A DNA stretch of 64,000 nucleotides from Longimicrobiales bacterium (GTDB lineage: Bacteria; Gemmatimonadota; Gemmatimonadetes; Longimicrobiales; Gaopeijiaceae): the NCBI GenBank assembly GCA_029245345.1, contig JAQWPM010000012.1, forward strand, positions 62,001-126,000, given 5' to 3'. This document shows, in pieces, positions 4,771 through 24,271 of this stretch; position 1 is the first letter of the stretch, and every line of letters begins with the position of its first letter. The notes under the pieces are model-generated. The model did no database searches. It saw only the letters and a program-made list of their open reading frames with translations, and had not been told where the DNA came from. A program made the translations under genes and the position numbers.

Positions 4771-4975
4771 TTAGATATCTCCGAATAGTATTGCTTAGCG
4801 GCACCGTGGCGGGAGGCGGGGCCTGGTTGATGATCAGGGGCTCAGGATGCAGCCCAGGGGGCGGTCCGGCAAGAAGGGGGGCTCAATTCCGGCTGCCCTA
4901 GCCAGACGCACATGCCGGGTCCAATTTGAAACAATACAATGGTTGTTGGACACAATCCCGACTACGGACCGCACC
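4771..4975. promoter_or_regulatory. Divergent intergenic region between M20 hydrolase and S9 peptidase
   Basis: This 205-base stretch separates two divergently transcribed exported hydrolases and must hold promoters for both. The frame of the S9 gene stays open upstream to 4847, but that extension would put a charged, non-signal sequence in front of the signal peptide. I therefore treat it as non-coding. I did not identify -35/-10 boxes with confidence. Confidence 0.45.
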
Positions 4976-8164: not shown

Positions 8165-9799
8165 TTAGCCGTAGCTCATATCAGGACGCCGCAGATGCCA
8201 ATCCGTCGCCTTCTGGAAGGCATGGGCGACGGCAAGGACCTTGTCATCCGCGAACAAGTCTCCGAGTAACGTGGTCGTGAGCGGCATCGTGGAAGGGTTG
8301 TCGGCATCGGCATTCCGGAGCCCGAAGCCGTAGGGTACGATGGCCGCCGGGTGGCCGGTCTGGTTGGTCAGGCCCACCTCTCCGGATCCACTCACGAACA
8401 TGTCGAAGCCTTCCATCGCCTCCGCCATCTCCTTCATGAGGATGAGGCGACGACGTTGGCTGTTTACGAAGTCGATGCCACGAACGTCGCGTCCCGAGCG
8501 GAAGCGACCGCGGCTCCTTCGCTCACCGGGGCTGAGATCGTCGGGCAACGGCTCCGGCTCCACGCCATCGGGCGCAATGTGGAAGTCGAATGCGGCCGAG
8601 GACTCGACCCCGAGCGAGTTCGAGCTGCCCCGAGGCATCGGGTTCATCTCACGGAGCGTCACACCAAGGTCCTCGAGCTGATCGAGAAACTCCCGTGGAG
8701 CATTCTCATCGAACCCGATGCGGAAGCCATTGATGCCGGCATTCGCGTCGAAACGAAACGGCGCCGTCACCGTCGCGGGATCGCGCTCGCTCGCACCTCG
8801 CATCGCCTCAAAGACAAGCGCACAATCCATCGAGCTGCGGCACATGGGTCCGGCCTTGTCCATGCTCCAAGACAACACCATACCGCCGTGCCGGCTCACG
8901 CTTCCGAAGGTGGGCCGGAGCGCCGAAATACCATTTCGTCGCGCCGGAGACACGATCGAACCCTGAGTCTCCGTGCCGATGGCGAAGCCCACGCAACCGG
9001 CAGCCGTGGCCGAGCCGGGCCCCGCGGACGACCCACTCGAGCCCTCCTCGATATTCCACGGATTCCGAGTTCTTCCCCGGAACCACTGGTCGCCGCGGGC
9101 GAACTCACCCGTCGCGAGCTTGGCGAGCAGGACCGCACCCGAAGCACGGAGCCGCAGTGCAATTTCGGCGTCCTCACCGAAGTGCTGATCGGCGAAAACT
9201 TCAGAACCCCACGTCGTGGGCGCCCCTTCGATCATGAAGAGGTCCTTGATGCCATACGGGATCCCATGGAGCGGACCGAGCCAATTCCCCTGCCGGAGCT
9301 GGGCGTCAGCCTCTTGAGCTTCCTCTCGTGCCCGGTCTTCCAAGATCGTGACCGCACAGAGGAGCACCGGGTTATACCGCTTCAGACGGTCCAGATACAG
9401 CTCTGTGAGGTCAACGGAGGAGATGTGCCGGTCTCGCACGAGCGCCGACAGGCGATGCACGGGCAGAAACGCGATGTCCTCTTCGTTGGTGGGCACCGCG
9501 CCTGGCCACGTCGGGATCTCGATGGCGTGGCGTTCGAACGGATTCACGCCCTGGGCGTGCCACTTCTCGTACAGCGATCCCGTACCGCCAGGGTAGGCCT
9601 GGTAGACCAACGCGGGGTGCTCGCCGTTACCGAGGGGTACGGGGGGCGGGCCCTGTTGTTGCGGGGGAACGTTGCTGCGCGTGGCATCCGAAATCGGCCC
9701 GTCAGCGGCAAGAAGCGAGGCTGGCGAGACAGCGCCGGTGGCCGCAGCTGCTGCGGCCGCCTTGAGGAAGTCACGGCGTTCTAAGGGCAACTTGGACAT
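8165..9799 (-). CDS. Tat-exported amidase (amidase signature family)
   Basis: Second amidase of the window, 544 residues. The N-terminus has a twin-arginine signal (Arg-Arg-Asp-Phe-Leu-Lys at 8-13) followed by an alanine-rich hydrophobic stretch, so it is exported folded by Tat. Catalytic features are Lys185 in Gly-Ile-Lys-Asp, the Gly-Ser-Ser-Gly-Ser-Ser loop near 253-258, and the nucleophile in Thr-Gln-Gly-Ser-Ile (near Ser281). The cis-Ser loop (Gly-Ser-Ser-Gly-Ser-Ser-Ala) differs slightly from the usual Gly-Gly-Ser-Ser-Gly-Gly-Ser. It resembles the first amidase only in the signature core, so it is not a recent duplicate. It is followed closely by the desaturase. Confidence 0.88.
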   Translation of the reverse strand: MSKLPLERRDFLKAAAAAAATGAVSPASLLAADGPISDATRSNVPPQQQGPPPVPLGNGEHPALVYQAYPGGTGSLYEKWHAQGVNPFERHAIEIPTWPGAVPTNEEDIAFLPVHRLSALVRDRHISSVDLTELYLDRLKRYNPVLLCAVTILEDRAREEAQEADAQLRQGNWLGPLHGIPYGIKDLFMIEGAPTTWGSEVFADQHFGEDAEIALRLRASGAVLLAKLATGEFARGDQWFRGRTRNPWNIEEGSSGSSAGPGSATAAGCVGFAIGTETQGSIVSPARRNGISALRPTFGSVSRHGGMVLSWSMDKAGPMCRSSMDCALVFEAMRGASERDPATVTAPFRFDANAGINGFRIGFDENAPREFLDQLEDLGVTLREMNPMPRGSSNSLGVESSAAFDFHIAPDGVEPEPLPDDLSPGERRSRGRFRSGRDVRGIDFVNSQRRRLILMKEMAEAMEGFDMFVSGSGEVGLTNQTGHPAAIVPYGFGLRNADADNPSTMPLTTTLLGDLFADDKVLAVAHAFQKATDWHLRRPDMSYG

Positions 9800-10184: not shown

Positions 10185-11621
10185 ATGACGAATCGTATCC
10201 GCACACTCCGCCGACTTGTCTGCGCATGCCTACCTGTTTCGCTCCTCCTGGGCCAGCCCGGCCAAACCCGGGCCCAGACAGAGGACCAACAGTCTCAGGT
10301 CGATCGGATGTTCAGAGTATTTGGGGAGAATACGCCGGGAGCTGCAGTCGCGGTGGTTCGCAACGGAGAAGTCCTCTTCCGGGCCGGTTACGGCATGGCG
10401 GATCTGAACCAGCACGTGCCCATCACCCCGGCGACGGTGTTCGACATCGCATCGGTGTCGAAACAGTTCGGCGGCTTCGCCATCGCGTCGTTGGTCGAGT
10501 CCGGTCTTGTCGATCTGGATGCCGAGGTCAGAGAGTACCTACCGGAACTCGCAGACTTCGGCGCCCCACTCACTGTTCGTCATCTTGTTCATCACATGAG
10601 TGGCATCCGCGACTGGCCGATCACGTTGGCGATCGCTGGGTGGCGCTTCGACGACGTAATCTCCTTCGATCAGATCCTACGCATGACATGGGCACAAAAG
10701 GAGCTCAACTTTCCGTCCGGCGACGAGTACAGCTACTCGAATACCGGGTACAACCTCCTCGCGGAGATCGTTCAGCGCGCCACGGGGCAGACGTTTCGAG
10801 AATGGACGGACGAAAACATCTTCGCGCCGCTGGGAATGGAAAGCAGTCTGTTCCAGGACAACCACTTAGAAGTGGTTCCTCTACGTGCTCGCGGACACTC
10901 GTTGGTACCGGGCGCGGGTTGGCTCGAATCACCAAACGGTCTAACCGCGCTGGGATCGAGTTCCCTACACAGCTCTGTCGACGATCTCGTGAAGTGGCTC
11001 ACGAATTTCGACACCCACGCGGTGGGCGGCCCAGCTGTGATCGACCGAATGCACACCCGAGGAGTTCTCAATTCGGGGGACACGATCGCCTACGCCTACG
11101 GGATCTCGACGGGGAGCTATCGCGGGATCCCAACGTGGAGCCACACCGGGTCATGGGCAGGAAATAGGACCGCGATCATACACCTGCCAACCCTGAACGC
11201 AGGCATCGTCGTCTTGTCGAACTCCGCGAACTACGATCCCACCCGAACTGCGAATCGCCTCGCGGACATTTTTTTTGACGACGAACTAGGATCTTCTCCG
11301 CCCCCGAGAGAGGAGTCGGAACCCGCCGACCAGGAACCAGGGCCCACGCTTTCCGAGACCGCCCTAGCAGAGTTCACAGGAGAGTGGTTCAGTGAAGAGC
11401 TCGACACCCGCTATGTCCTGTCGGCGGTGAACGGCCGGCTGGTCGCCGATCACTACCGGCACGGTCGAGTGCAGATGACACCAACTGCCACGGATATTTT
11501 CACGAGCACAGGCCTCTTCTTCCGACCTGTCCGTTTCGAACGAAACCCAGACGGGAGCCTTGGCGACATGTTCGTGGGCCAGGCACGGGCGCGGAACCTG
11601 AGGTTCGAGCGCGCGCGCTAG
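10185..11621 (+). CDS. Beta-lactamase-fold serine hydrolase (class C / esterase-like), exported
   Basis: Penicillin-binding-protein/beta-lactamase-fold serine hydrolase of 478 residues with an N-terminal signal peptide ending Thr-Arg-Ala-Gln. Active-site motifs are Ser90-Val-Ser-Lys93 (nucleophile and base), Tyr184-Ser-Asn and His320-Thr-Gly (the KTG equivalent). This pattern is typical of DD-peptidase/esterase-like members rather than dedicated antibiotic-resistance enzymes. A C-terminal domain of about 110 residues follows, like the DUF3471-type lipocalin domain often fused to this family. The gene stands alone and converges on the second AbgB-like gene. Likely substrates are D-amino-acid peptides or esters. 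Confidence 0.87.
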   Translation: MTNRIRTLRRLVCACLPVSLLLGQPGQTRAQTEDQQSQVDRMFRVFGENTPGAAVAVVRNGEVLFRAGYGMADLNQHVPITPATVFDIASVSKQFGGFAIASLVESGLVDLDAEVREYLPELADFGAPLTVRHLVHHMSGIRDWPITLAIAGWRFDDVISFDQILRMTWAQKELNFPSGDEYSYSNTGYNLLAEIVQRATGQTFREWTDENIFAPLGMESSLFQDNHLEVVPLRARGHSLVPGAGWLESPNGLTALGSSSLHSSVDDLVKWLTNFDTHAVGGPAVIDRMHTRGVLNSGDTIAYAYGISTGSYRGIPTWSHTGSWAGNRTAIIHLPTLNAGIVVLSNSANYDPTRTANRLADIFFDDELGSSPPPREESEPADQEPGPTLSETALAEFTGEWFSEELDTRYVLSAVNGRLVADHYRHGRVQMTPTATDIFTSTGLFFRPVRFERNPDGSLGDMFVGQARARNLRFERAR

Positions 11622-11663: not shown

Positions 11664-13298
11664 TTACCGTCCTTCGTCGCGGTCCTCGCTGATGGGCCGG
11701 GTCCGAATCATGGGATACTCGATTCCGAGTTGCTCGAGATACGTGCCGAAGCGAGTCGGGTCGTAGTAATAGGGCCGCATGCGTTCGCGCCATTGGGCCA
11801 TGATCCCCTCGTTCAAGAAGATGGCCGGCTTGTCGTCCGCAGTGATGAACGGTGTGTACTCCATGTCCACCATCTGGACGTCATTGAAGTAGTCCCAGGC
11901 CGCATCGACGGTTTCTCCGTCCAAGAAGAGGTCGAGCAGAGTGAGCGCCTGGACCTTCGCACCCGCCAACGAGCCCTTGTGGGCGATAGGCGTCGCCATG
12001 GCGATACCGTTCGCCCAGTTGTGACCGGGCCCACCAGGCATATTCGCCGGATAACGCATGGTGACCGTCGGCATATTCCAGGACACGTCACCGATGTCGT
12101 CCGAACCACCACCCGCGTAGGTGGCGAGATCGATCGGTCCGCGGAGCGGAGGCACTTCGGTCGAGAGCCCTCTCGGCTCCTGCCCCATCTCTCCCTGGAG
12201 GGCGTTGGCGAGCGCGATGTCGTCATCGCTCCACTCGGGGAGTCCGACGCGCTCGATGTTGGCCTGGCTCATCTCCGCGACCGGCTTGCTGAAGTGTCGG
12301 TTCCACGCCGAGCCGATCGTCATAATGGTGTCGATCTGGGTTCCGGTCATGAGCGCCGCGCCTTCAGCCATCAACTTTGCCGCATCGTACATCTCCGTGA
12401 CGTGCTCGTAGTCCACTTCACGTAAGAAGAACCAGATCGTCGCGAACTGAGGCACGACGTTGGGCTGGTCACCACCCTCCACAATGATGTAATGCGAACG
12501 CTGTGGTGGCCGCAGATGCTCGCGCTTGAACTCCCACGCCTGCGCCAGCAACATCACCGCGTCGAGCGCCGAACGACCGCGCCACGGTGACCCGGCCGAG
12601 TGGGCGGTCTCCCCTTGGAAGCGGAATTGCGCGGAAACGAGCGCGTTACCGCTCGTGTGGCCCCACGTCATCGAGAAATTGGAAGACACGTGCGTGAACA
12701 GATTCACGTCGACGCCATCGAATACGCCATCACGAACGAAGAACGCCTTGGAGCCGAGCTGCTCCTCTGCAATGCCCGGCCAGATGAGGAGAGTACCGTC
12801 GATCCCCTCGCGCTCCATGAGCTCTTGCACGTTGAGCGCCGCGACGATGTTCACGGCTTGTCCGGAGTTGTGCCCTTCCCCGTGCCCCGGAGCCATGGAA
12901 AGGATTGGGTCGCGGTATGCCACACCCGGCTTCTGATTCGACTGCGGGATGCCGTCCACATCCGACCCAAGAGCGATCACGGGCTGACCGGTTCCGTTGG
13001 ACCACCGAGCGGTCCAGGCACTCGGCATACCTGCCACACCGAGCTCGATGTCAAAGCCAGCGTCTGCGAGAATCCCCGTCAGGTACCGCTGCGTCTCGAA
13101 CTCCTGCATGCCCAACTCACCGAAGCTGAAGAGCATGTCGACGATCTCCTGCACCTGCTTGGCGTCCGCCTGCACCATTTCGAGGGCTTCATCCTTGAGG
13201 TCGTCCAACCGTGGGTCGGCTTGAGCCACCAATCCTGATGGAAGGAAGACGGCGAGTGCGAGGGTGCAGAAGATCGAGCTGAACGTCGTGCGACGCAT
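11664..13298 (-). CDS. Exported M20-family amidohydrolase, AbgB-like (copy 2)
   Basis: Paralogue of the gene at 3115-4770, 544 residues, with the same signal-peptide arrangement, metal motifs (Gly-Ser-Asp-Val-Asp-Gly, His-Gly-Glu-Gly-His-Asn, Ala-Glu-Glu-Gln) and the same C-terminal block ending Thr-Arg-Pro-Ile-Ser-Glu-Asp. Most differences are at the N-terminus and in the segment before the Gly-Gly-Gly-Ser-Asp-Asp-Ile motif. I chose the ATG at 13298: a GGAGG site lies about 9 bases upstream and the signal peptide begins there; the open frame runs further to 13388. The pair likely arose by duplication within this cluster and may differ in acyl-group preference. Confidence 0.87.
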   Translation of the reverse strand: MRRTTFSSIFCTLALAVFLPSGLVAQADPRLDDLKDEALEMVQADAKQVQEIVDMLFSFGELGMQEFETQRYLTGILADAGFDIELGVAGMPSAWTARWSNGTGQPVIALGSDVDGIPQSNQKPGVAYRDPILSMAPGHGEGHNSGQAVNIVAALNVQELMEREGIDGTLLIWPGIAEEQLGSKAFFVRDGVFDGVDVNLFTHVSSNFSMTWGHTSGNALVSAQFRFQGETAHSAGSPWRGRSALDAVMLLAQAWEFKREHLRPPQRSHYIIVEGGDQPNVVPQFATIWFFLREVDYEHVTEMYDAAKLMAEGAALMTGTQIDTIMTIGSAWNRHFSKPVAEMSQANIERVGLPEWSDDDIALANALQGEMGQEPRGLSTEVPPLRGPIDLATYAGGGSDDIGDVSWNMPTVTMRYPANMPGGPGHNWANGIAMATPIAHKGSLAGAKVQALTLLDLFLDGETVDAAWDYFNDVQMVDMEYTPFITADDKPAIFLNEGIMAQWRERMRPYYYDPTRFGTYLEQLGIEYPMIRTRPISEDRDEGR

Positions 13299-13448
13299 GC
13301 GAGGTGCCTCCGGAGCAGTGTGCGTTCTCGGGCGAGACCTGGGATGGGCCGCCGCGGTCACGATGCGGCCGCGGTGGGAGCAGGGCAAGTAAGAGACAGT
13401 CGAACGGACCTGCCGAGGATGTCACATGTCGTTCCACGCTCTCGGGGA

Positions 13449-14117
13449 CTACCGCGCAGCGTTCGTTGTGACGGGACCCTCTAATCCCCGCACCAAGGCG
13501 CGGACACCCTCGGCGCGCGCGTGCACCTCTGCCACCCCGGTCCGAGCAACAAGCACAGAGACGTGGTCGGCGCGTACTCCGCCGGCGGCGATGATCCCGA
13601 TCCGGTCCTGGGCAGCATCCACGAGCCCGGCGAGTGCTGTCGCCTGGTCCACGGCCCGGCCCGGACCTCCACCCGTCAGGACACGACTGACGCCAATGTC
13701 CATCAGTGTGTGCAAGGCCGCCGAACCGTCGCTGATTTCGTCGAACGCGCGATGGAAGGTCACCGGAAGAGAACCGGCCGCGGCGACCCACCGCCGGAGC
13801 GCCTCCTGGTCCACGGTCCCGCGATCGGTCAGCGCACCCACGACGATGCCCGCTGCACCGGCAGCCTTCATCTCCCGGACGGTTTCTTCCATGGCAGCCA
13901 CTTCATCCGGGGCGTACACGAACGGCCCGGGTCGAGAACGAACCATGACGAACGCGGGGATCTGGATCGCCTGAACCACTGCTTCCACGAGTGCCGTGCC
14001 TGGCGTGACGCCGTCCACGTCGAGGTCGTAACAGAGTTCGAGTCGGTCCGCACCGGAATCGGCGCACTCCCTGGCCTCCGCCAGCGAGGTGACACATCCC
14101 TCGACCACGACGGTCAC
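13449..14117 (-). CDS. cutC: CutC family TIM-barrel protein
   Basis: CutC-like protein of 222 residues (family usually 210-250). Diagnostic segments are Gly-Ala-Asp-Arg-Leu-Glu-Leu-Cys, Pro-x-Phe-Val-Met-Val-Arg-x-Arg, Pro-Val-Thr-Phe-His-Arg-Ala-Phe-Asp and Gly-Val-x-Arg-Val-Leu-Thr-Gly-Gly. CutC was named for copper homeostasis in E. coli, but a copper role is poorly supported and the fold looks enzymatic. Here it is the last gene of a seven-gene catabolic-looking operon and starts with a GTG that overlaps the transporter stop (GTGA). That context argues for a metabolic role. The predicted protein is complete. Confidence 0.85.
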   Translation of the reverse strand: MTVVVEGCVTSLAEARECADSGADRLELCYDLDVDGVTPGTALVEAVVQAIQIPAFVMVRSRPGPFVYAPDEVAAMEETVREMKAAGAAGIVVGALTDRGTVDQEALRRWVAAAGSLPVTFHRAFDEISDGSAALHTLMDIGVSRVLTGGGPGRAVDQATALAGLVDAAQDRIGIIAAGGVRADHVSVLVARTGVAEVHARAEGVRALVRGLEGPVTTNAAR

Positions 14118-15367
14118 GCGTTGAGGGTCTCCCCTTCGGACTTCGCGACAATGGCGGCAGCGGTGAGGTCCCCCACGATGTTCGTGCCCGTGCGGAACAT
14201 GTCGAGGAAACGATCGAGACCGGCAACAAGCGCAATCCCGGCGGCTGCCTCAGCCCCCATGCCGATCGCCGTCAGGACAATGAGCGTCGTAACGAGCGAG
14301 CTCCCTGGAACGCCGACGCCAGCCAGTGCCGCCAGCGTGGCCGTGACGATGATGACCACGTACTCCGCGCCACCGAGTGGCACCCCGTAGACCTGGGCGA
14401 CAAACACCGCCGTCAGCGCCTTGTACAAGGCGCTTCCATTCATGTTCAGTGTCGCCGCTACGGGGAGCACGAAGCTCGCGACCTCGTTCGAAACACCGAG
14501 ATTCTTCTCCGATACCTCCAAGCTCACGGGCAACGTCGCATTCGAGGATGCCGTTGAGAACGCGAGGATTGGCGCCGCAGCCACATGCTTCCAAAACGCC
14601 CGCACGGAGATCCCGGCGAGCTTCAGCATCCCCGACAGCACAACGAAGGTGTGAAACAGCTCGCCCGCGATGACCAAGACAGAGTACACGAGCAGCGCCT
14701 GCAGGAGATCGGCTCCGAACCGCGCCAAGGCCCCGGCAATCAACACAAAGACCGCATACGGAGCCAGTTTCATTACCCAGTCGATGATCACGGCGGCCGC
14801 AGCGTTGACCCCGCGGAAGAAGGCTACGACCGGCTCGCGTCTCTCCGCCGGGAGCCCCGACAGGGCGGCTCCAAACGCAAGCGTCGCGAAAATCAGCCCG
14901 AGTAGATCCATATTCGCGGCGGCCGCCACTGGATTCCTCGGGATGATCGCCACGAACCGTTCCATGAGCGACACGGTCTGTGCCCGCTCCGCCGACTCTT
15001 CCCCTCGGTCCGAATATTGGGCTGCGATGGCGTCCCGCTGGTCCGACTCGATCGAGCTTCCCGGTTGCACCGCGAGGCCGAGTCCTAACCCAATCATCGC
15101 CGCAATGACGGTTGTGACGAGGAAGTAGCCCAACGCCTTCCCACCGATGCGGCCCACAGCCCTCACGTCGCCCACGGACGCCACCCCCAACAGCAGACTC
15201 GCGACCACCAGCGGTACCACGACCATGCTGATAAGGCGGATGAACACGGTCCCGATCGGTTCCAACGCCAGCACGATGGAGAGCGCCACTCCTCCGACGG
15301 CCTGAGCGACAATCCCGGACACGATGCCCAACACGAGCCCGATCAGGATCTTCGTCGTGAGCTTCAA
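14114..15367 (-). CDS. Glutamate/dicarboxylate:cation symporter (DAACS family)
   Basis: Inner-membrane carrier of 417 residues in the GltP/GltPh family. Conserved elements include the serine-rich re-entrant loop (Ser-Thr-Ala-Ser-Ser-Asn-Ala-Thr-Leu-Pro, 271-280) and the last helix with Asp389, Arg392, Asn396 and Asp400. Arg392 aligns with GltPh Arg397, which binds the distal carboxylate, so an acidic substrate is expected. The usual Asn-Met-Asp-Gly-Thr motif reads Asn-Met-Asn-Gly-Ser (308-312), replacing an Asp used in Na+ coordination in GltPh. The start is a TTG that overlaps the stop of the small-subunit gene (TTGA). In the operon it probably imports the pathway substrate. Confidence 0.88.
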   Translation of the reverse strand: MKLTTKILIGLVLGIVSGIVAQAVGGVALSIVLALEPIGTVFIRLISMVVVPLVVASLLLGVASVGDVRAVGRIGGKALGYFLVTTVIAAMIGLGLGLAVQPGSSIESDQRDAIAAQYSDRGEESAERAQTVSLMERFVAIIPRNPVAAAANMDLLGLIFATLAFGAALSGLPAERREPVVAFFRGVNAAAAVIIDWVMKLAPYAVFVLIAGALARFGADLLQALLVYSVLVIAGELFHTFVVLSGMLKLAGISVRAFWKHVAAAPILAFSTASSNATLPVSLEVSEKNLGVSNEVASFVLPVAATLNMNGSALYKALTAVFVAQVYGVPLGGAEYVVIIVTATLAALAGVGVPGSSLVTTLIVLTAIGMGAEAAAGIALVAGLDRFLDMFRTGTNIVGDLTAAAIVAKSEGETLNA

Positions 15368-15876
15368 CTGACGCTCTCCAGGTCCCCTGTCCGCGCGACG
15401 AGAGGCACGATCCCTCCCGCCTGAAGCAACTTCAACGCAAACGGAGAAAAGGGGGCCGCATCAATCCGCAGTTGGGCCGTGTCGTCGTCGACTCTGATTC
15501 CAAGAGCATCGATCTCGATTCGCAACCGTGCATGTTCCGCGATCGAGGTGCTGTCGATCTCTATAGGCACGAGGCCGTTGTTCAGCGCGTTTCGGTAGTA
15601 GGTCCGCGAGAAGCTCTTCGCCACTACGACCCGAATCCCGGCGGCAAGCACGACGGTAACCGCGACCTCCATGGCTGACCCCGAGCCGAACTGTTCACCA
15701 GCGACCAGAACATCGTCGGGCTGCACCGAAGCGGCGAAGTCGGGATCTACAGATTCCAGTAGCCACTGTTTGAGCACATCCGGATCGATCGTCTCTCTCT
15801 TTCGAGAAGATGAGATGATGTAGTCCGTATTGATCGAGTCACCGAGCTTCCGCGCCCGTCCGGCAAAGGTCAGCAT
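15364..15876 (-). CDS. Aconitase/LeuD-like (de)hydratase, small subunit
   Basis: Swivelling small subunit of an isopropylmalate/homoaconitate-type hydro-lyase, 170 residues. Ser-Ile-Asn-Thr-Asp-Tyr-Ile (14-20) and Ser-Phe-Ser-Arg-Thr-Tyr-Tyr-Arg-Asn-Ala (88-97) match LeuD/HacB. The substrate-specificity loop after the first motif reads Ser-Ser-Arg-Lys-Arg-Glu-Thr (23-29) rather than the Tyr-Leu-x-x type of LeuD or homoaconitase. The Gly-Cys-Gly-Ser-Ser-Arg-Glu-His block reads Gly-Ser-Gly-Ser-Ala-Met-Glu-Val. The ATG at 15876 shares one base with the stop of the large subunit (TGATG); the longer open frame upstream is read through the large-subunit gene. The substrate is probably not isopropylmalate. 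Confidence 0.85.
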   Translation of the reverse strand: MLTFAGRARKLGDSINTDYIISSSRKRETIDPDVLKQWLLESVDPDFAASVQPDDVLVAGEQFGSGSAMEVAVTVVLAAGIRVVVAKSFSRTYYRNALNNGLVPIEIDSTSIAEHARLRIEIDALGIRVDDDTAQLRIDAAPFSPFALKLLQAGGIVPLVARTGDLESVS

Positions 15877-17087
15877 CAGGCCACCTCGCGTGGATCGACC
15901 ACATACCCCGCCGCAGCCGCTGCCGCACACGTAGCAGGTGACCCCAGCATGATCTCGATGCTCGGCTCGCCCATGCGCGCCCGGAAATTGCGGTTGGCGG
16001 TTGATATTACCCGAGCACCGGGCGGGGGAAGGGGGCCTGATGTGCCACAACAGGGTCCACACCCGGTTTCCGCAATCAAGACCCCCGCCCCTTCGAGCGC
16101 AGCAAGTGTCCCGTCGTCGACCAAAACTGCCCGTACTGCCGCGGTCGGCGGGGCGGCGGCCACGGTCACACCGTTGGCGATCCCTCCAGCAGCGCGCAGG
16201 ACTCGAAGAGCTTCCCGGAAGTCGTCGGCACGGCCGCCCGCGCAGGTGCCGAGGAAAACCCAATCGACCTCCCGACCGAGGGCATCACCTATTGGGACCC
16301 GATTCCCTGGGTCATGAGGCAAAGCCACGAGCGGGTCGATCTCGCCGAGTTCGACCGAGACGGTCGAAGCGAATGCCGCGTGGTCGTCCGACGCCCATTC
16401 CGAGGTCGGGAACACACCGGCCATCCCGCCCATCTCGGCCACCATGTTGCATAAGACGATTCGGTCTTCTGGCGGAAGTTCTCGCACCCCCTGCCCCACG
16501 AATTCCAGCGCAGTGAACGGGCTGACAACCCCAGCCAGCCGTGCAACCAACTCCAGGGCGACGTCTTTGGTGGTGACGCCCGTTGCCATGACGCCCGACA
16601 GATCCACACGAGTTGTGTCGGGGACACGAAGCCAGACCTTACCGGTCTTGAAGGCGGCAGCCAGGTCCGACGACCCAACCCCGGTGGCGAACGCACCCGC
16701 AACTCCGCACGTGACGGTGTGGCTGTCCCCTCCAATTACGAGATGCCCCGACGCCACGCGCCCCGTTTCCAGAGCGACGAGGAAACTGATCCCACCTCCG
16801 ACAGCCAGCAGCTCGATGCCGTGCGCGGCGGCAAATTCCTCCATACGGGAGTGGAACGCTTGTGTGGCCGGAGATGTCGGAGGCGCGTAGTGATCCCGGG
16901 CCAGCAGTACGCGCTCGGGGGCTACAACCGCCCCACCACCCATGGCCTCATAGTAGTCGATGGCCATGGGGGTCGAGCCGTCCGTGCCCAAGATCAGGTC
17001 CGGTTCACCGACAACGATGTCACCCGCCCGAGCATCCGTTCCGGATTTGGCCCCGAGCACTTTTTCCGAAAACGTGAGCCCGGTCAC
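15876..17087 (-). CDS. Aconitase/LeuC-like (de)hydratase, large subunit ([4Fe-4S])
   Basis: Catalytic large subunit of an aconitase-superfamily hydro-lyase, 403 residues, close in size to archaeal-type LeuC/HacA. [4Fe-4S] ligands are Cys282 (Gly-Thr-Cys-Ala-Gly-Gly), Cys343 and Cys346 (Gly-Cys-Gly-Pro-Cys-Cys-Gly). Gly-Gly-Asp-Ser-His-Thr (119-124) is the conserved His-bearing loop. The gene sits between an aminotransferase (ATG overlapping its stop by four bases) and the small subunit. There are no leuA or leuB neighbours, so leucine synthesis is unlikely. With an RraA-type aldolase two genes upstream, hydration of an unsaturated 2-oxo-dicarboxylate is my inference. Confidence 0.88.
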   Translation of the reverse strand: MTGLTFSEKVLGAKSGTDARAGDIVVGEPDLILGTDGSTPMAIDYYEAMGGGAVVAPERVLLARDHYAPPTSPATQAFHSRMEEFAAAHGIELLAVGGGISFLVALETGRVASGHLVIGGDSHTVTCGVAGAFATGVGSSDLAAAFKTGKVWLRVPDTTRVDLSGVMATGVTTKDVALELVARLAGVVSPFTALEFVGQGVRELPPEDRIVLCNMVAEMGGMAGVFPTSEWASDDHAAFASTVSVELGEIDPLVALPHDPGNRVPIGDALGREVDWVFLGTCAGGRADDFREALRVLRAAGGIANGVTVAAAPPTAAVRAVLVDDGTLAALEGAGVLIAETGCGPCCGTSGPLPPPGARVISTANRNFRARMGEPSIEIMLGSPATCAAAAAAGYVVDPREVA

Positions 17088-18166
17088 GAAAGGGCCGACC
17101 GCATCACTTCCAGCGTACGTTCTACGTCGTCCATCCGAATATCACCCATGTGGCCCACGCGAACACAACTACCAGCATACGACCGCAACCCGACCGCGAT
17201 CTGTACCCCGCCGCTCCGCACCTTCACGCGGTATGCATTGGCATCGACACCGTCTGGAACCGTCAGTGCCGTCAGCGTTGGGGAGCGCTGGTGAATACCC
17301 GCGCCTAAGAGACCAAAGCCGAGCGCACGTGTCCCTGTACGCACCCGCTCCGCCATCTCCGCATGCCGTTCAAAGACGTGATCGAGACCCTCCTCGGTGA
17401 GGATACGAAGCCCCTCCCTCACCTGGAGCACTAACGACACCGGGGTCGTGCCCGGTGTCTCAGCACGATCCCGCGCCAAGGTCGAGCGGATGGCCTCAAA
17501 TGACAGGTAGTTCTTCGGGAATGGGGACCGCTCCACGGCCTGCCAAGCACGCTCTCCTACGACTGCAAACGAGAGCCCCGGGCTCGCCATCAAACATTTC
17601 TGAGATGACGTGACCGCGAAGTCGAGATCCCATGCATCGAAGGAGAAGGGCGCGCCCCCAACGGAACTGATGCCATCGACCAGGATCAGCGATCCGTGGC
17701 TTCGAGCGACCGCAGCGATCTGAGCGATGGGGTTCAATACAGCGGTGCTGGTGTCCGAATGCGTGCACAGGACACCCCGCACGCCCCCTCCCGCCAACGC
17801 GGCCTCGACCACAGCCGGGTCGACGCTGTGCTCCCAGTCCTCACACACACGGCGCACGTCGAGGCCGTAGGATTCGGCGAATTCCGCCCACATCTCTCCG
17901 AAGCTGCCGTTGCAACACGCCACGACCGCATCCCCGGGCGCGAAGAAATTAGTGATCGCACCCTCCATAGCTGCCCTGCCCGTCGCATGTACGGGCAGCA
18001 CGTCCGCGGACGCCGCCCCAAAAAAGGGGCGAATGAGATCGAAGGTCTCGTCCAACACGTCGGAGAATTCAGGCGTCCGGTGGTGAAGTACGCGATGCGA
18101 CGCGAGTAGCACTCTTTCCGGGATCCGCGTGGGTCCCGGAGTCATGAGCAAGGCATCTTCCCTCAC
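17084..18166 (-). CDS. Class V PLP aminotransferase (serine-pyruvate/alanine-glyoxylate type)
   Basis: Fold-type I PLP aminotransferase of 360 residues. Lys190 in Thr-Ser-Ser-Gln-Lys is the Schiff-base residue, and Asp164 in Val-Asp-Gly-Ile-Ser-Ser contacts the pyridine nitrogen. The opening Met-Thr-Pro-Gly-Pro-Thr-Arg-Ile-Pro and the C-terminal Val-Arg-Val-Gly-His-Met-Gly-Asp are hallmarks of the alanine-glyoxylate/serine-pyruvate group. It overlaps both neighbours by four bases, so it is translationally coupled to the RraA-type gene and the aconitase-like large subunit. In the operon it probably converts an imported amino acid to its 2-oxo acid. Specificity cannot be read from sequence. Confidence 0.88.
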   Translation of the reverse strand: MREDALLMTPGPTRIPERVLLASHRVLHHRTPEFSDVLDETFDLIRPFFGAASADVLPVHATGRAAMEGAITNFFAPGDAVVACCNGSFGEMWAEFAESYGLDVRRVCEDWEHSVDPAVVEAALAGGGVRGVLCTHSDTSTAVLNPIAQIAAVARSHGSLILVDGISSVGGAPFSFDAWDLDFAVTSSQKCLMASPGLSFAVVGERAWQAVERSPFPKNYLSFEAIRSTLARDRAETPGTTPVSLVLQVREGLRILTEEGLDHVFERHAEMAERVRTGTRALGFGLLGAGIHQRSPTLTALTVPDGVDANAYRVKVRSGGVQIAVGLRSYAGSCVRVGHMGDIRMDDVERTLEVMRSALS

Positions 18167-18843
18167 TCGATTGCACCCTTCCGGCGAAGTGTCTCGTCAA
18201 TCTCGGCCTTGAACACGTCGCCTGATGCGATCGCTGCGACGCGTTTCTCTTCCCGGTCCTCGAGGGCTCGGACCCTTTCCAGCACCTGCTGGGCGTCCGC
18301 GAGGGGGACGACTGCGATGCCGTCGGCATCACCAACAATGATGTCTCCGGGAAGCACCGCAGTGTGACCGCACGAGATAGGGATATTGATCTCCCCTGGG
18401 CCGTCCTTGTCGCACCCACCTGGGTTTACGACTCGACTAAACGCCGGAAAACCGAGCGTCTTCAATCCGTCGGCATCCCGGATCGCGCCATCCACGATGA
18501 TACCGCCCAGATCCGCTGCGACCGCAGAGTGACACATCAGCTCACCAAAGACCGCACTGGTCGTGTTTCCGTTCGTGCTCACGACTACGATATCACCCGG
18601 AGAGGCGACCTCTAAAGCTTTGTGCACCATGAGGTTGTCACCCGGTCGCACACTCACGGTGACGGCGACCCCACACATCGGCAAGCCCGTCCGATTCTGG
18701 ATGCCGGGGTCCATGAAGTGGAATCGACCCATCGCGTCTGCAACGTTCGAAGACGCCTTACCCCTGAAGGCCTCCACCAAATCGGGCGACGGCCGCGGCG
18801 TGTCCGTGAAGATCCGGAATCCGATGGCTCCGTGAGTCGACAT
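18163..18843 (-). CDS. RraA-family aldolase/decarboxylase (HMG/CHA aldolase-like)
   Basis: RraA-superfamily protein of 226 residues. Arg122-Asp123 in Gly-Ala-Ile-Arg-Asp-Ala-Asp and the later Gly-Asp-Ala-Asp-Gly (171-175) are the catalytic/metal pattern of 4-hydroxy-4-methyl-2-oxoglutarate and 4-carboxy-4-hydroxy-2-oxoadipate aldolases. These use a divalent metal to cleave to pyruvate and also decarboxylate oxaloacetate. The pattern argues for an enzyme rather than an RNase E regulator. It shares one base with the stop of the upstream M20 gene (TGATG) and overlaps the aminotransferase by four bases. I propose it performs the final C-C cleavage of the operon pathway. Confidence 0.86.
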   Translation of the reverse strand: MSTHGAIGFRIFTDTPRPSPDLVEAFRGKASSNVADAMGRFHFMDPGIQNRTGLPMCGVAVTVSVRPGDNLMVHKALEVASPGDIVVVSTNGNTTSAVFGELMCHSAVAADLGGIIVDGAIRDADGLKTLGFPAFSRVVNPGGCDKDGPGEINIPISCGHTAVLPGDIIVGDADGIAVVPLADAQQVLERVRALEDREEKRVAAIASGDVFKAEIDETLRRKGAIE

Positions 18844-20225
18844 CAGTTCGAGATCTCCAGAACGGTTTTGTATAGGAACTCTACGAAGAGCGGCATCCCG
18901 GCTATGGGTGTTCGTTCATCGTTCCCGTGTGCTCGCGATCCCGTCGCCGGGTCCGTTGGGAGTCCAATGCCATACGCGAGAATCCCAGCCGCCCGCAGCT
19001 GCGAGGAATCGGTCCCCCCCGTCAGCATGGTCGGTATCGTGGTCGCCGCCGGAAATAGGTCGGCCTGGATCTTTTCCATGGCGCGAAACAGATCGGAGTC
19101 GATGGGCATCGGGTCCGACACCGGGCGACGTGCCCCGAAACGCACCACCTCTATTGTCGAATCGTCCACTACCCGCTCAATCTCCGCCTTGAGCCAAAGC
19201 GTATCCTCTTGAGGCAAGGCGCGGATATCGAGCGTGGCGATGGCTTCCGCAGGAATGACGTTTCGGCGAAAGCCACCCTCGATGATCGTCGGTGAAACCG
19301 AGGTACGTAGCATGGAGTTCGCCGTGAGGTCCGTAAGCCTCAGTTGCTCCTGAACCAGGTCCGTGATCTCGGGGTTTTCCAGATTCCGGTAGAGGTAAGC
19401 AGTCTCAGGAGACGAAATTTCAGCCATGCGACGGAAGTACTCTCGCGTCGTGGAATTCAGGCGCATGGGGGGCTGCCATAAACCGAACTTCGCTACCGCT
19501 CGGGCCAAAGCCACGATGGGATTGTCGGGCCTGGGCCGGGATCCGTGACCCGACGTTCCACTGGCCACCAGCCGCATGCGCGTACTCACTTTTTCCGTCG
19601 TCGCAACGGTCAGGCGGGTGATTTCGCCGTCGATCAGCGAAAAGCCCCCACCCTCGTTGAGCGCGAACTCCGCATCGATCTTATCGAAGTGTTCGGCGAC
19701 CATGAACTCGACCCCGAGATGGGCCATCCCCTCTTCACCCGCATTGGCCATGAAGATGACGTCCCGGTCGAGTTCGATACCCGACCGCGCGATCATCAGA
19801 AAAACCTCGAGCGCACCTGCCGTCATACCCTTGTCGTCCTGCGCGCCACGACCCCACAGGTAGCCGTCTTTGATCACGGCGGCGAATGGGTCCACCGTCC
19901 ATGAATCTCGTTCGACTCCGACCACGTCGATGTGTCCCATGAGCAGGATCGGGCGCTTGGAGCCATTCCCGGGAATGCGCGCGACCAGATTTCCTCGGCC
20001 CGGCTCCATCTCGTAGATGTGGGACTCGATGCCTTCCGCGGCGAGCACACCCTGGATGAACTCGCACACCTCGGTCTCGTTCCCAGGAGGCGAACTCGAG
20101 TCGATGCGGACCATGCCTTGCAGGAGCGAAATGGCCTCGTCACCCGAAGCGGCGAAGTCCTGGGCGACCAGGGGTGAAACAGACAGGCCGGCAGCGATCA
20201 AGAAGAGACAGACACGTCTTCGCAT
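18843..20225 (-). CDS. Exported M20/M28-type zinc metallopeptidase
   Basis: Zinc carboxypeptidase/deacylase of 460 residues with a signal peptide ending Pro-Leu-Val-Ala-Gln. Motifs are Gly-His-Ile-Asp-Val-Val (97-102), Gly-Ala-Gln-Asp-Asp-Lys-Gly (127-133) and Ala-Gly-Glu-Glu-Gly (162-166), which supply the co-catalytic zinc ligands and the general base. It is unlike the AbgB-like pair in this window. The ATG at 20225 has a GGAGCT site 5 bases upstream; the open frame continues to 20282 but adds no signal-like sequence. As the first gene of the operon, it may release an acidic amino acid from peptides or N-acyl conjugates outside the cell. Confidence 0.88.
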   Translation of the reverse strand: MRRRVCLFLIAAGLSVSPLVAQDFAASGDEAISLLQGMVRIDSSSPPGNETEVCEFIQGVLAAEGIESHIYEMEPGRGNLVARIPGNGSKRPILLMGHIDVVGVERDSWTVDPFAAVIKDGYLWGRGAQDDKGMTAGALEVFLMIARSGIELDRDVIFMANAGEEGMAHLGVEFMVAEHFDKIDAEFALNEGGGFSLIDGEITRLTVATTEKVSTRMRLVASGTSGHGSRPRPDNPIVALARAVAKFGLWQPPMRLNSTTREYFRRMAEISSPETAYLYRNLENPEITDLVQEQLRLTDLTANSMLRTSVSPTIIEGGFRRNVIPAEAIATLDIRALPQEDTLWLKAEIERVVDDSTIEVVRFGARRPVSDPMPIDSDLFRAMEKIQADLFPAATTIPTMLTGGTDSSQLRAAGILAYGIGLPTDPATGSRAHGNDERTPIAGMPLFVEFLYKTVLEISN

Positions 20226-20554: not shown

Positions 20555-21730
20555 TCACGCGCCCCAGATCTCTCCGAAGACGCGCTGGAAGTTGCCACCT
20601 AGGATCCCACGGATGTGTTCGTCGGTGTATCCGCGCTGGATGAGTCCTTCAGCCACATCGAACATCCGCTTGGGGTGTGCCACTTCATCGATGTCGATCT
20701 TGTCGCGGAACGCATACGAACCTTTGTAGTTGGCTTTTAGCGCAGCGTACGCGTCGGCCGGCATGTCGTCATAACCGAAGAGGTCGATGTCGGACCCGAT
20801 GCCGAGGTGCTCCACGCCGACCAAGTCCCGCACGTGATCGAAGTGGTCCATGTAGTGCTCGATCGTAGTGGGCTCTTCCGTGGTCACGAACATGCGGACA
20901 CCGGTAATGCCCATCACGCCACCCGTGGCGGCCATCCTCCGAATCGCTTCATCTGTCTTACAACGGGGATGCCCCGCGGCGAGGTCTCGCACATTGGAGT
21001 GGGTGAATAACACCGGTTTTACTGAGACTTCGCAGGCATCGAGCGTCGTCTGGTCTCCTGAGTGCGAGACGTCGACCGCCATGCCGACCTCGTTCATTCT
21101 CTCCACGATCCGAACACCGAAGTCACTAATACCGCCGTCGATGCGCTCGGTCGAGCCGTTCCCGATCAAGTTGCGGGAGTTGTATGTGAGCTGACTCACA
21201 CGCTGACCCAGAGCGTGGAACGTGTTCACGTCGTTCGGATTTCTGAAGTGCGAGGAATCCTGGATTCCAATGAGCACCCCTGTTCGATCCGAATTGTGCA
21301 CCGCAGCCAGGTCCGTGACCGAATCGATGCGCATGAAGACGTCTGGTCGGTTCGCGACGATGGAGTTGTACTGGCTCACGAACGCCAGACAGTTCTGGTA
21401 CGCGTCCTGTTGCGTGACGCCGCCAACACCCGATGCGATGTGGAAGACGTCGATGCCGGACGCCTTGAAATGTTCGATGTCTTCCGCGGTCATCCCGTCG
21501 AAGCCAGGTCCCCACCGTTGCTCCGTTTCACCGTTCAGAGACAGCAGGCCCAGCATGTCGATCACGAGCGAGCCTTCCACCAGATCGATGCATCGGGTCG
21601 AGTACTCTTGGGGTGACCACGCAAAAAGCTGGTGGCGCCCGGTCGATACGAAAGGGGCGACCATCCCGAGTCCTACCGCACCAACAGCGCCCTTCAGGAG
21701 GGAGCGACGACTGAGGTCGCGGCGGCTCAC
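20555..21730 (-). CDS. Tat-exported M19-family (renal-type) dipeptidase
   Basis: Membrane-dipeptidase family protein of 391 residues with a twin-arginine signal (Ser-Arg-Arg-Ser-Leu-Leu-Lys near residues 7-13). The zinc ligands Val-Ser-His-Ser-Gly and Thr-His-Ser-Asn-Val-Arg are present, as is Gly-Ser-Asp-Ile-Asp. However, the N-terminal His-x-Asp pair of canonical M19 enzymes is missing: the corresponding segment reads Val-Ile-Asp-Met-Leu-Gly-Leu-Leu. The metal centre may therefore be incomplete or rebuilt. The family cleaves dipeptides, including D-containing ones. The start leaves about 110 bases to the Kbl gene stop on the same strand. Confidence 0.83.
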   Translation of the reverse strand: MSRRDLSRRSLLKGAVGAVGLGMVAPFVSTGRHQLFAWSPQEYSTRCIDLVEGSLVIDMLGLLSLNGETEQRWGPGFDGMTAEDIEHFKASGIDVFHIASGVGGVTQQDAYQNCLAFVSQYNSIVANRPDVFMRIDSVTDLAAVHNSDRTGVLIGIQDSSHFRNPNDVNTFHALGQRVSQLTYNSRNLIGNGSTERIDGGISDFGVRIVERMNEVGMAVDVSHSGDQTTLDACEVSVKPVLFTHSNVRDLAAGHPRCKTDEAIRRMAATGGVMGITGVRMFVTTEEPTTIEHYMDHFDHVRDLVGVEHLGIGSDIDLFGYDDMPADAYAALKANYKGSYAFRDKIDIDEVAHPKRMFDVAEGLIQRGYTDEHIRGILGGNFQRVFGEIWGA

Positions 21731-21843: not shown

Positions 21844-23076
21844 CTACTGCCGTTCTTGGTAGGCCTCCAACAAGGCGAGAACGTGGTCGATGTCCGCCTC
21901 GGTATGGTCGGCGTTGATTTGGGTCCTGATTTCCTCGTCACCGCGAGGTACGACCGGGTATGCAAGTCCGGTGACAAGGACCCCGTTGTCGTAGAGATAC
22001 TGCACAAGATCTCTGGTCCCCTGAGTGTCCCGAATCATGAGGGGGACCACCGGGTGTTCTCCCGGAATCGTCTCGATGCCGATGCGACCCAGTCCATTCT
22101 CGAAACGCTTCGTGAGCGCGCGGAGGTTCTCGAGAAGCTCTAATCCCGCTGGGCTGTCCACGATCTCCACGGAGCGTAACGCGGCTGCCGCCTCACCCAC
22201 GGTGATCGGGTTCGAGTAGATGTACATCTGCGACGACTCTCGCAAGAAGTCGATGATCGACGCACCTGCAGCGACATATCCGCCGTTGACTCCAAAGGCC
22301 TTCCCGAGCGTGCCGACCAACACGTCGACGGGCCGGGCGCCGGTGAACTCTTCGGTGCCCCGTCCCGTCCGGCCGAACGAGCCAACTCCGTGTGAGTCGT
22401 CCATGATGCAGACGACGTTCTCTTCGTAGTCAGCATCGTGTTTGACGCACACATCCATGATCTCAGCCATCGGCGCGTGATCACCCCGCATGGAAAAGAT
22501 CCCGTCTGTCACGACGATCGCCCGCTTCGCTTTCCCTTTCCACTCTCCGAGGGCTTTGTCGAGTCCGTCCACATCGTTGTGTCCGTAGATCGCTTTCCCA
22601 GCGGGCCGGCTCAACTTCATCGCATTGATGATGCAGTTGTGGTTCAACTCATCGGAGATGAGAACCGTCTCCTTCGTCACCAGCGGAGTAATGGACGACA
22701 TGATCGCGGCATAAGCCGACGAAAAAATCATCCCGGCTTCGCGGTCATGGAACGCGGCCATCTTGGCTTCGAGCGCGAGGTGAGCCTCGTAGCTCCCTGA
22801 GATGAAGCGCACCGCGCCGGGACCGGCACCGAATTCCTTCGTGGCCGCATCTTCTGCCTCGATGACTTCGGGGTTGAGCCCCATGCCGAGGTACGAATTG
22901 GAGTTCATACGAATGAAATGCTTGTCGCTCTCGCCGCGGAGCAAAACGCGCGGGCCATGGTCTCCCTGGGCGCGGACTACTCCGGTTACCACCACCTCGG
23001 CACCCTTCGCGGTCCCGGCCTCTTCGAGTCCGGTCACGTGAGCATCCAAAACTGCGTTCAGTCTATCGACGGGCAT
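21844..23076 (-). CDS. kbl: Glycine C-acetyltransferase (2-amino-3-ketobutyrate CoA ligase)
   Basis: PLP-dependent alpha-oxoamine synthase of 410 residues that splits 2-amino-3-oxobutyrate with CoA into glycine and acetyl-CoA. Visible features are Asn-Ser-Asn-Ser-Tyr-Leu-Gly, the cofactor-contact Asp-Asp-Ser-His-Gly-Val-Gly, and the Schiff-base Lys in Gly-Thr-Leu-Gly-Lys-Ala-Phe-Gly. It lies 3 bases downstream of an SDR-type threonine dehydrogenase, which makes Kbl more likely than the related BioF or serine palmitoyltransferase. The pair converts threonine to glycine plus acetyl-CoA. The C-terminus is complete. Confidence 0.87.
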   Translation of the reverse strand: MPVDRLNAVLDAHVTGLEEAGTAKGAEVVVTGVVRAQGDHGPRVLLRGESDKHFIRMNSNSYLGMGLNPEVIEAEDAATKEFGAGPGAVRFISGSYEAHLALEAKMAAFHDREAGMIFSSAYAAIMSSITPLVTKETVLISDELNHNCIINAMKLSRPAGKAIYGHNDVDGLDKALGEWKGKAKRAIVVTDGIFSMRGDHAPMAEIMDVCVKHDADYEENVVCIMDDSHGVGSFGRTGRGTEEFTGARPVDVLVGTLGKAFGVNGGYVAAGASIIDFLRESSQMYIYSNPITVGEAAAALRSVEIVDSPAGLELLENLRALTKRFENGLGRIGIETIPGEHPVVPLMIRDTQGTRDLVQYLYDNGVLVTGLAYPVVPRGDEEIRTQINADHTEADIDHVLALLEAYQERQ

Positions 23077-23079: not shown

Positions 23080-24021
23080 TCAGTCCTCTACCAGATGTTC
23101 GAGCATGTCTTTGGTCATCGCCGCCGCGTCGAACTCGGCGTTCCAGTCCCACTCGGCGCGTGCCGCAGAGTCATCGATTCGATCTGGCCACGAGTCGGCG
23201 ATCCCCTGCCGAACCGGGTCCACGTCGTAGTCGATCGTGAAGTCGGGAATGTGTTTTCGGATCTCGGCGGCCAGCGTTTCCGGACTGAGTTGCATCCCGG
23301 TGACGTTGAACGCGTTTCGGTGAACGAGACGCCCCGGGTCCGCCTCCATGACCTGCATCGCCGCGCGAACGGCATCGGGCATGTACATCATGTCCAACTG
23401 TGAATTACCCCTGAGGAAGCACGTGTACTGGGAGTGCCGAACCGCCTTGTAGAAGATGTCGACGGCCCAGTCCGTGGTACCTCCTCCAGGAGGCGCACCA
23501 TAGGAGATCAGCCCGGGGAAGCGCACGCCGCGGGTGTCCACCCCGTAACGTGTGTGGTAGTAGTCGCACAGAAGCTCCCCAGCCACCTTCGTGATCCCGT
23601 AGATCGTAGCCGGACGCATGAGCGTGTCCTGCGTCGTCGGATCTTTGGGTGTGTCTGGACCGAACGCACCGATCGAGCTCGGAGTGAAGACCGCACAATT
23701 CTGCTCCCGCGCGACTTCGAGCACGGCCTCGAGGCTGGCCATGTTCACGTGCCAAGCCAGCCGAGGATCCTTCTCGCCGATCGCGGACAAGATGGCCGCG
23801 AGGTGGTAGACGGTGTCGGCACGGTGGCGCATGACTGCCTGACCCACGGCCTTCGCGTCAGTAGCGTCCAACACCTGGAATGGCCCCGCGTCGGTCGCCT
23901 CACGATCCAGGTGCCTCACGTCCGTGGCGAGGACTTTGGAGTCTCCATAAGTCCGGCGTAGCGCCGGTACCAACCAAGAGCCGATCTGTCCGCCGGATCC
24001 GGTCACCAGAATGCGTTTCAA
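23080..24021 (-). CDS. L-threonine 3-dehydrogenase, SDR (epimerase-like) type
   Basis: NAD-dependent short-chain dehydrogenase of the extended epimerase type, about 313 residues. The Rossmann motif Thr-Gly-Ser-Gly-Gly-Gln-Ile-Gly opens the protein, with catalytic Ser in Thr-Pro-Ser-Ser-Ile-Gly and Tyr-Gly-Ile-Thr-Lys (Tyr-x-x-x-Lys). It oxidises threonine to 2-amino-3-oxobutyrate for Kbl, encoded 3 bases downstream. I prefer a TTG start at 24021, where GGAG lies 9 bases upstream and the protein begins directly at the Rossmann fold. The ATG at 24060 is an alternative with a weaker ribosome site. A sugar epimerase role is unlikely next to kbl. Confidence 0.83.
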   Translation of the reverse strand: MKRILVTGSGGQIGSWLVPALRRTYGDSKVLATDVRHLDREATDAGPFQVLDATDAKAVGQAVMRHRADTVYHLAAILSAIGEKDPRLAWHVNMASLEAVLEVAREQNCAVFTPSSIGAFGPDTPKDPTTQDTLMRPATIYGITKVAGELLCDYYHTRYGVDTRGVRFPGLISYGAPPGGGTTDWAVDIFYKAVRHSQYTCFLRGNSQLDMMYMPDAVRAAMQVMEADPGRLVHRNAFNVTGMQLSPETLAAEIRKHIPDFTIDYDVDPVRQGIADSWPDRIDDSAARAEWDWNAEFDAAAMTKDMLEHLVED

Positions 24022-24271
24022 GAGTATGGACTCCCGAGGGTCTCGGATGGTCGTTTCCATCAGTAATCGTGCGGAAATGTAGTGTTCTCTAGCGGGTGGT
24101 GCGACCCTTGCTTTCGGGAAATATCCCCGCACGTGATTCAGGAAGAACCAAGGAATTCTCCAGCGACCCAGACATTAGATTTCAAGCGTGGGAAGGCACC
24201 GATGTGTTGGCGCTATTGCCTCTCCCAGAAGACGTGGTTGTATGTGATTACTTCAAAGAGGTGGTGGTACC
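24022..24271. promoter_or_regulatory. Divergent intergenic region upstream of tdh-kbl
   Basis: This stretch separates the minus-strand threonine-degradation genes from the plus-strand small secreted protein. The open frames in it lack protein-like composition or family motifs. It should hold promoters in both directions; I could not identify boxes with confidence. Confidence 0.35.

Follow-up and report, generated by a model that had tools for sequence, protein, structure and literature searches.

Organization of the operon

What pathway is served when an aldolase that releases pyruvate, an aminotransferase, a pair of proteins resembling the leucine-biosynthetic LeuC and LeuD, and an acidic amino acid symporter are encoded as one coupled unit? 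The question is raised by seven minus-strand open reading frames (ORFs) that span 20225 to 13449 in a 64,000-nt stretch (the window) of contig JAQWPM010000012.1 from a Longimicrobiales bacterium. Five of them, for the RraA-type aldolase, the aminotransferase, the LeuC-like and LeuD-like subunits and the importer, constitute a conserved core that is probably a short catabolic route for a glutamate-like amino acid, itself probably 4-substituted. The operon goes beyond chance assembly, because three families of the phylum, and other phyla as well, share its five-gene core. The strongest evidence for amino acid import and transamination as pathway steps is that the aminotransferase and the importer are both replaced by unrelated proteins. 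Family assignments were made by Pfam and NCBIfam profile matches, and where two bit scores are given, the second is the cut-off of the model.

18843-20225, minus strand: M20 family metallopeptidase (PF01546) with a signal-peptide-like N-terminus; lineage-specific, outside the core
18163-18843, minus strand: RraA-type class II pyruvate aldolase, 226 aa (PF03737); first gene of the conserved core
17084-18166, minus strand: class V (fold type I) aminotransferase, 360 aa (PF00266)
15876-17087, minus strand: LeuC-like large subunit of an aconitase-superfamily hydro-lyase, 403 aa (PF00330)
15364-15876, minus strand: LeuD-like small subunit with remodelled active site (PF00694; TIGR02087, 123.9 bits)
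15796-15810, minus strand: specificity loop S-S-R-K-R of the LeuD-like protein (consensus S-x-R-K-[RK])
15667-15681, minus strand: GSAME codons, in place of GSSRE, in the LeuD-like gene (from motif comparison)
14114-15367, minus strand: DAACS (SDF) acidic amino acid symporter, 417 aa (PF00375); TTG start
13449-14117, minus strand: CutC (PF03932, 199.7 bits); GTG start; lineage-specific, outside the core

From M20 to CutC, successive genes overlap by 1, 4, 4, 1, 4 and 4 bases, the single base shared by the LeuC-like and LeuD-like ORFs being that given by an ATG start of the latter. ORF coordinates and profile families agree with an earlier, sequence-only reading of this DNA, which had described a one-strand seven-gene operon with overlaps of 1-4 bases. 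Promoter, terminator and RNA-family scans returned nothing useful.

Conservation of the core

The LeuC-like protein was searched against 395 genomes of the window's phylum, and 12-20 kb were read around its relatives, which show 65-73% identity in the window's family and about 50% in two further families. In these three Gemmatimonadota families, RraA, aminotransferase, DAACS, LeuC and LeuD form one same-strand block nearly everywhere, in two gene orders. None of the partner genes lies beside the more distant LeuC proteins (32-39% identity; L058, L062-L064). A wider scan, in which a LeuD alignment and the peptide patterns GSAME[VI]A[VA]T and [TS][FY][YFL]RNA[IVL]NN were run against 84,980 species genomes, gave 135 relatives, and 80 of these loci were retained. 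The hosts belong to Gemmatimonadota, Acidobacteriota, Bradyrhizobium and other Hyphomicrobiales, Rhodospirillales, Burkholderiales (Cupriavidus, Paraburkholderia, Caballeronia, Pandoraea, Ramlibacter and others) and Pseudomonas agarici, and the core thus recurs in five phyla or classes: Gemmatimonadota, Acidobacteriota and the alpha-, beta- and gammaproteobacteria. Among the 55 loci with enough flank for counting, RraA is found within 9 kb of LeuD in 44, an aminotransferase in 48, both together in 42, and an importer of the types described below in 49. The sequence-only reading had called for such a neighbourhood survey and had staked its proposal on conservation beyond close strains; the core is kept far beyond them.

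The same survey sets the two ends of the operon apart from its core. Only G000 and G001, the two genomes of the window's genus, have the M20 gene immediately upstream of RraA, and only in these two is CutC part of the operon. It occurs in 1 of the 55 flanked loci of the wider survey, and among 14 other cluster-bearing genomes it lies on another contig in 11 and is absent from 3. Adjacency limited to one genus rules out CutC as a pathway enzyme and M20 as a core step. The earlier suggestion that CutC would gain a metabolic context is therefore given up, and CutC is incidental to the pathway. Membership of M20 in the pathway likewise shrinks to the window's genus, where the enzyme may free the amino acid extracellularly.

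Aminotransferase and importer

The nearest named model of the window's aminotransferase is BhcA (NF045640, 240.6/650 bits), a member of the same superfamily from which the protein is nonetheless distinct. The missed BhcA cut-off argues against the beta-hydroxyaspartate cycle, and the neighbourhoods examined yielded no recognisable BhcB, BhcC or BhcD. Class V aminotransferases fill this place in Gemmatimonadota, Acidobacteriota and most alphaproteobacteria; the Burkholderiales enzyme is of class I and aspartate-transaminase-like (PRK06107, 597/617 bits).

For the DAACS protein of the window, the best NCBIfam model is GltP (267/638 bits). Within this family, D394 of GltPh binds the amino group of the substrate and R397 its distal carboxylate. 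Equivalents of both are kept in the DAACS proteins of the cluster, that of the window included, where the arginine had been singled out from the sequence as reader of a distal carboxylate; the R397 equivalent is invariant among these proteins. A dicarboxylic amino acid is thus favoured over a plain dicarboxylate as the imported compound. The importers of the clusters otherwise comprise GltS (TIGR00210), a glutamate/aspartate ATP-binding cassette (ABC) system (GltIJKL-like; binding protein PRK10797, 334/375 bits), TAXI-TRAP (NMT1_3 with DctM), Bug proteins and a 2-aminoethylphosphonate-type ABC system. Burkholderia has a GltP-like DAACS, Cupriavidus a Bug protein, and the ABC binding protein of Bradyrhizobium resembles the 2-aminoethylphosphonate type (TIGR03261, 149/393 bits). 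Conservation of the core, together with this non-homologous replacement of aminotransferase and importer, upholds the acidic amino acid route of import, transamination, LeuCD-like step and RraA cleavage that had been put forward from the sequence.

The RraA-type aldolase

The models closest to the window's RraA are PRK06201 (224/231 bits) and the 4-carboxy-4-hydroxy-2-oxoadipate (CHA) aldolase model PRK09262 (163.4/179 bits, just under cut-off). The score against PRK09372, the RNase E inhibitor RraA regulator, is 70/136 bits and rules out that identity. Arg122-Asp123 and the GDADG motif of pyruvate-releasing aldolases, noted in the sequence-only reading, are present. When aligned to the Pseudomonas putida aldolase for 4-hydroxy-4-methyl-2-oxoglutarate (HMG) and CHA (3noj), the protein keeps R40, N71, H75, R123, D124, G144 and K147, with Cys in place of T145. 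Equivalents of R40, N71, H75, R123, D124 and K147 are kept in 64-65 of the 65 cluster RraAs; position 144 is mostly Gly (51/65) and position 145 is Cys or Pro. Replacements such as N71A and K147A abolish HMG cleavage or reduce it more than 1000-fold (PMC5065237). By its catalytic residues, the window's RraA is predicted to be a pyruvate aldolase of the HMG/CHA type.

The LeuCD-like enzyme

Most of the residues that mark an aconitase-superfamily hydro-lyase are found in the LeuCD-like pair. The large subunit keeps the three cysteines of the Fe-S cluster and the DSH, DH and NRNFxxR motifs, and the small subunit keeps, in all LeuDs of the cluster set, the serine (Ser68) equivalent to the catalytic base, which in aconitase is Ser642 (PMC8184944). 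Throughout the subfamily, GTC[TA]GG replaces GSCTNGR in LeuC. The two small-subunit regions critical for substrate binding (PMC7308503) are both rewritten. Where isopropylmalate isomerase (IPMI), homoaconitase (HACN) and aconitase have GSSRE, described for IPMIs and aconitases as a conserved motif that binds the substrate (PMC7308503), the cluster LeuDs have GSAME and have lost the Ser-Arg pair that binds a carboxylate. GSAME occurs in 90 of 90 cluster LeuDs, a count that is partly ascertainment, as the scan patterns for 80 loci contained the motif; it is likewise present in every cluster LeuD found via LeuC, where no motif search was involved, and SSRE is kept in the outgroup LeuDs L045, L058, L062, L064, 2pkp, 1v7l and 3vba. 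The specificity loop, S-x-R-K-[RK], has two or three added basic residues and exceeds the YLxx loop of IPMI/HACN by one position (Ser24 in 90/90, Arg26 in 89/90, Lys27 in 90/90, Arg or Lys at position 28 in 90/90), and the hydrophobic YLxx-type substrate recognition loop of IPMI is absent.

In profile terms, the pair misses the cut-offs for IPMI (TIGR02083, 277/611 bits for LeuC; TIGR02084, 98/246 bits for LeuD) and for homoaconitase HacA/HacB (NF040615, 266/550 bits; NF040625, 113/230 bits). A maximum-likelihood tree, midpoint-rooted and including some long outgroup branches, separates the cluster LeuCs from 15 other LeuC/HACN sequences by a branch with 100/100 support. No leuA or leuB was found in any neighbourhood seen. 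The window's genome also encodes AcnA and, distinct from both AcnA and the window's pair, a LeuD-LeuC fusion; a leucine or tricarboxylic acid cycle role therefore need not fall to the window's pair. The fusion (G000:C12, about 612700-615200; L065 6708-9227) is a single chain with an N-terminal LeuD domain, carrying canonical GSSRE, followed by the LeuC domains. By its motifs, its cut-off scores and a clade of its own, the LeuCD-like pair does not belong with the isopropylmalate isomerases, and together with the gene context these features argue against a leucine, lysine or citramalate LeuCD.

Proposed pathway and its alternatives

From these elements we infer the order of the steps, the chemistry of the LeuCD step and the nature of the substrate. 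A glutamate/aspartate-type transporter would import a glutamate-like amino acid, which the pyridoxal phosphate (PLP)-dependent aminotransferase would convert into the 2-oxo acid. The LeuCD-like [4Fe-4S] hydro-lyase would then hydrate the 2-oxo acid, or move its hydroxyl, to give R-C(OH)(COO-)-CH2-CO-COO-, from which RraA would release pyruvate and R-CO-COO-. With R = CH3, the intermediate would be HMG and the products two pyruvates, so that the enzymes and the importer would make a complete pathway. Imports suited to R = CH3 are 4-methyleneglutamate (through the 3-ene tautomer formed after transamination), 4-hydroxy-4-methylglutamate and 3-hydroxy-4-methylglutamate. The claim that 4-methyleneglutamate fits all steps was overstated: the compound is compatible with the route, but its exocyclic methylene would first have to isomerise to the 3-ene, because aconitase-type enzymes abstract the proton adjacent to an electron-withdrawing group. 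It is the leading candidate, doubtful as this single assignment is; the two hydroxy-methylglutamates, like other 4-substituted glutamates, suit the route about equally well. Going by the general aconitase mechanism, loss of the GSSRE Ser-Arg and gain of a basic loop would be expected if an oxalyl group, such as RraA substrates carry, took the place of the usual beta-carboxylate. In its full form, our proposal is that the operon represents an undescribed and widespread pathway mineralising 4-substituted (4-methylene- or 4-hydroxy-4-methyl-) glutamate to pyruvate, with the LeuCD-like pair as a functionally new branch of the aconitase superfamily, one whose 2-oxo acid substrate has no malate skeleton. 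We advance this only tentatively.

Several observations weigh against the proposal. RraA is not nearby in 11 of the 55 flanked loci, and 7 of the 55 have no recognised aminotransferase. Some importers, namely Bug and the 2-aminoethylphosphonate-type protein of Bradyrhizobium, are not specific for glutamate or aspartate. The LeuC histidine equivalent to His147 of aconitase is Phe in the window's own lineage, and the clusters come from a wider range of habitats (deep lake, groundwater, peat, marine) than the plant amino acid 4-methyleneglutamate does. The route as a whole is read from sequence and gene context, and the role assigned to GSAME follows from mechanistic background on aconitase.

Chemistry of the CHA type would have the aldolase and the LeuCD-like enzyme act on a CHA-related substrate rather than on HMG. 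It would supply the usual aconitase-type alkene in an unsaturated oxalomesaconate/citraconate skeleton, the extra basic residues of the LeuD loop could read one more carboxylate, and RraA keeps Asn71 and Lys147, once proposed as binders of the CHA C5 carboxylate. Both residues are required for HMG too (PMC5065237), however, and enzymes acting on malate skeletons retain GSSRE where the cluster LeuD has GSAME. The window's genome, moreover, has no PF02900 match and hence no LigB extradiol dioxygenase for aromatic ring cleavage, which also rules out gallate/protocatechuate 4,5-cleavage. CHA-type chemistry is thus considered unlikely. We think it similarly improbable that the aminotransferase works downstream, with an imported carboxylate passing through LeuCD and RraA and the released glyoxylate or pyruvate being converted into glycine or alanine. 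The best named relatives of the window's aminotransferase (BhcA, an aspartate-glyoxylate enzyme, and the alanine/serine-glyoxylate aminotransferases) would suit that arrangement, as would the Bug importer of Cupriavidus, whose family also binds carboxylates; yet most clades have glutamate/aspartate-type importers, the Asp that binds the amino group is conserved in DAACS, and the class I substitute resembles an aspartate transaminase.

Run in reverse, the pathway could be biosynthetic: RraA would join pyruvate to a 2-oxo acid, the other enzymes would make an unusual glutamate analogue, and the symporter would bring in the amino donor. Aldolases of the RraA type can run in both directions, and those of the HMG/CHA type have served, in combination with aminotransferases, to synthesise monatin and other 4-hydroxy-4-substituted glutamates. 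The neighbourhoods, however, have no recurring synthetase, exporter or peptide assembly gene, importers do recur in them, and LysR, IclR or GntR regulators adjoin cluster genes as is typical of inducible catabolism, making the biosynthetic direction very unlikely. Least probable of all is an ordinary leucine-, lysine- or citramalate-pathway LeuCD placed by chance beside amino acid scavenging genes. LeuC and LeuD are the default annotation, and the window's pair is the only two-subunit LeuCD of its genome; against this stand the failure at every equivalog cut-off, the altered motif and loop, the separate 100/100 clade, the lack of leuA and leuB in the neighbourhoods, and the presence of AcnA and the GSSRE-bearing fusion in the same genome.

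Variant loci and genomic surroundings

Some clusters have neighbours of their own. In the Acidobacteriota loci L093, L096, L104, L085, L086 and L107, the cluster lies about 1 kb downstream of genes for urocanase (HutU) and imidazolonepropionase (HutI), and some of these loci have LeuCD with neither RraA nor aminotransferase nearby. Given the distance and the two small genes between, this proximity is a clue at most to a link with histidine. The Bradyrhizobium-type clusters L081, L087, L088, L098 and L099 adjoin a PLP aldolase of the threonine-aldolase/GntG group (NF041359, 83/230 bits), which suggests a link to beta-hydroxy amino acids. At L131 and L132, LeuCD has as neighbours an apparent aldehyde dehydrogenase and a thiamine pyrophosphate-dependent decarboxylase of two subunits resembling sulfopyruvate decarboxylase, with no aminotransferase within 8 kb. 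L084, L095 and L136 (Hyphomicrobiales/Rhodospirillales) combine LeuCD and a class V aminotransferase with TAXI-TRAP genes, a GntR regulator and an enoyl-CoA hydratase; RraA is absent from the stretch available at L084 and L095.

Around the operon itself, many genes for peptide and amino acid scavenging are found between 4847 and 24132 of the window. Besides those listed here, an M20D-type amidohydrolase (TIGR01891, 157/154 bits; 11664-13388, minus strand) begins 61 bases past the CutC stop. In the window's genome it may share a transcript with the operon, but in G001 it does not follow CutC.

4847-7228: dipeptidyl-peptidase-like protein
8165-9799: amidase
10185-11621: serine hydrolase of the D-aminopeptidase/beta-lactamase type
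20555-21730: putative M19 dipeptidase
21844-23076: glycine C-acetyltransferase-like enzyme
23080-24132: short-chain dehydrogenase/reductase, which may be a threonine dehydrogenase

Significance and comparison with known systems

The enzyme families involved are known; neither their combination nor the aconitase-superfamily branch with GSAME seems to have been described. Neither bacterial breakdown of 4-methyleneglutamate nor a matching operon or pathway was found in the open-access literature. If the proposed pathway is correct, a single route of amino acid breakdown would account for many genes now annotated in soil, plant-associated, freshwater and marine bacteria as leucine biosynthesis enzymes or as RraA family protein. 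It would add to the aconitase superfamily a branch with a rewritten substrate-binding motif, testing how much of the active site is needed, and would point to non-protein glutamate analogues as a real class of environmental nutrient. Cultured hosts (Cupriavidus, Paraburkholderia, Bradyrhizobium and Pseudomonas agarici) make the question directly testable.

Among characterized systems, the aldolase shares fold and essential residues with the HMG/CHA aldolase (PDB 3noj), and a hydratase feeding an RraA-type pyruvate aldolase repeats the logic by which 4-oxalomesaconate hydratase feeds LigK. Unlike the LigK-type pathway, the cluster lacks a LigB ring-cleavage gene, its predicted hydratase is an aconitase-type LeuCD pair, and its input would be an amino acid entering via the aminotransferase. 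The beta-hydroxyaspartate cycle (BhcABCD) likewise ties a class V aminotransferase of the BhcA/AGT group to acidic amino acids; the cluster differs from it in scoring only 240/650 bits with the BhcA model and in having no recognised BhcB, BhcC or BhcD nearby. The importer of the window is homologous over its full length to GltP, GltPh and the aspartate transporter 9bgz and has their amino- and distal-carboxylate-binding residues, but differs from GltPh in having Asn for D312 and in lacking R276 at its HP1 position. With IPMI and homoaconitase (LeuCD, HacAB), the LeuCD-like pair has in common the two-subunit aconitase-superfamily architecture, the Fe-S cysteines and the base-equivalent Ser, whereas GSAME, the RK(R/K) loop with its one-residue insertion, GTC[TA]GG, a clade of its own and the lack of leu or lys genes nearby set it apart. 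Aconitase X, which comprises the cis-3-hydroxyproline and mevalonate-5-phosphate dehydratases (PMC8184944), offers a precedent for altered active-site residues accompanied by an unexpected dehydration; unlike Aconitase X, the LeuCD branch of the cluster is close to IPMI/HACN and keeps most of the aconitase residues.

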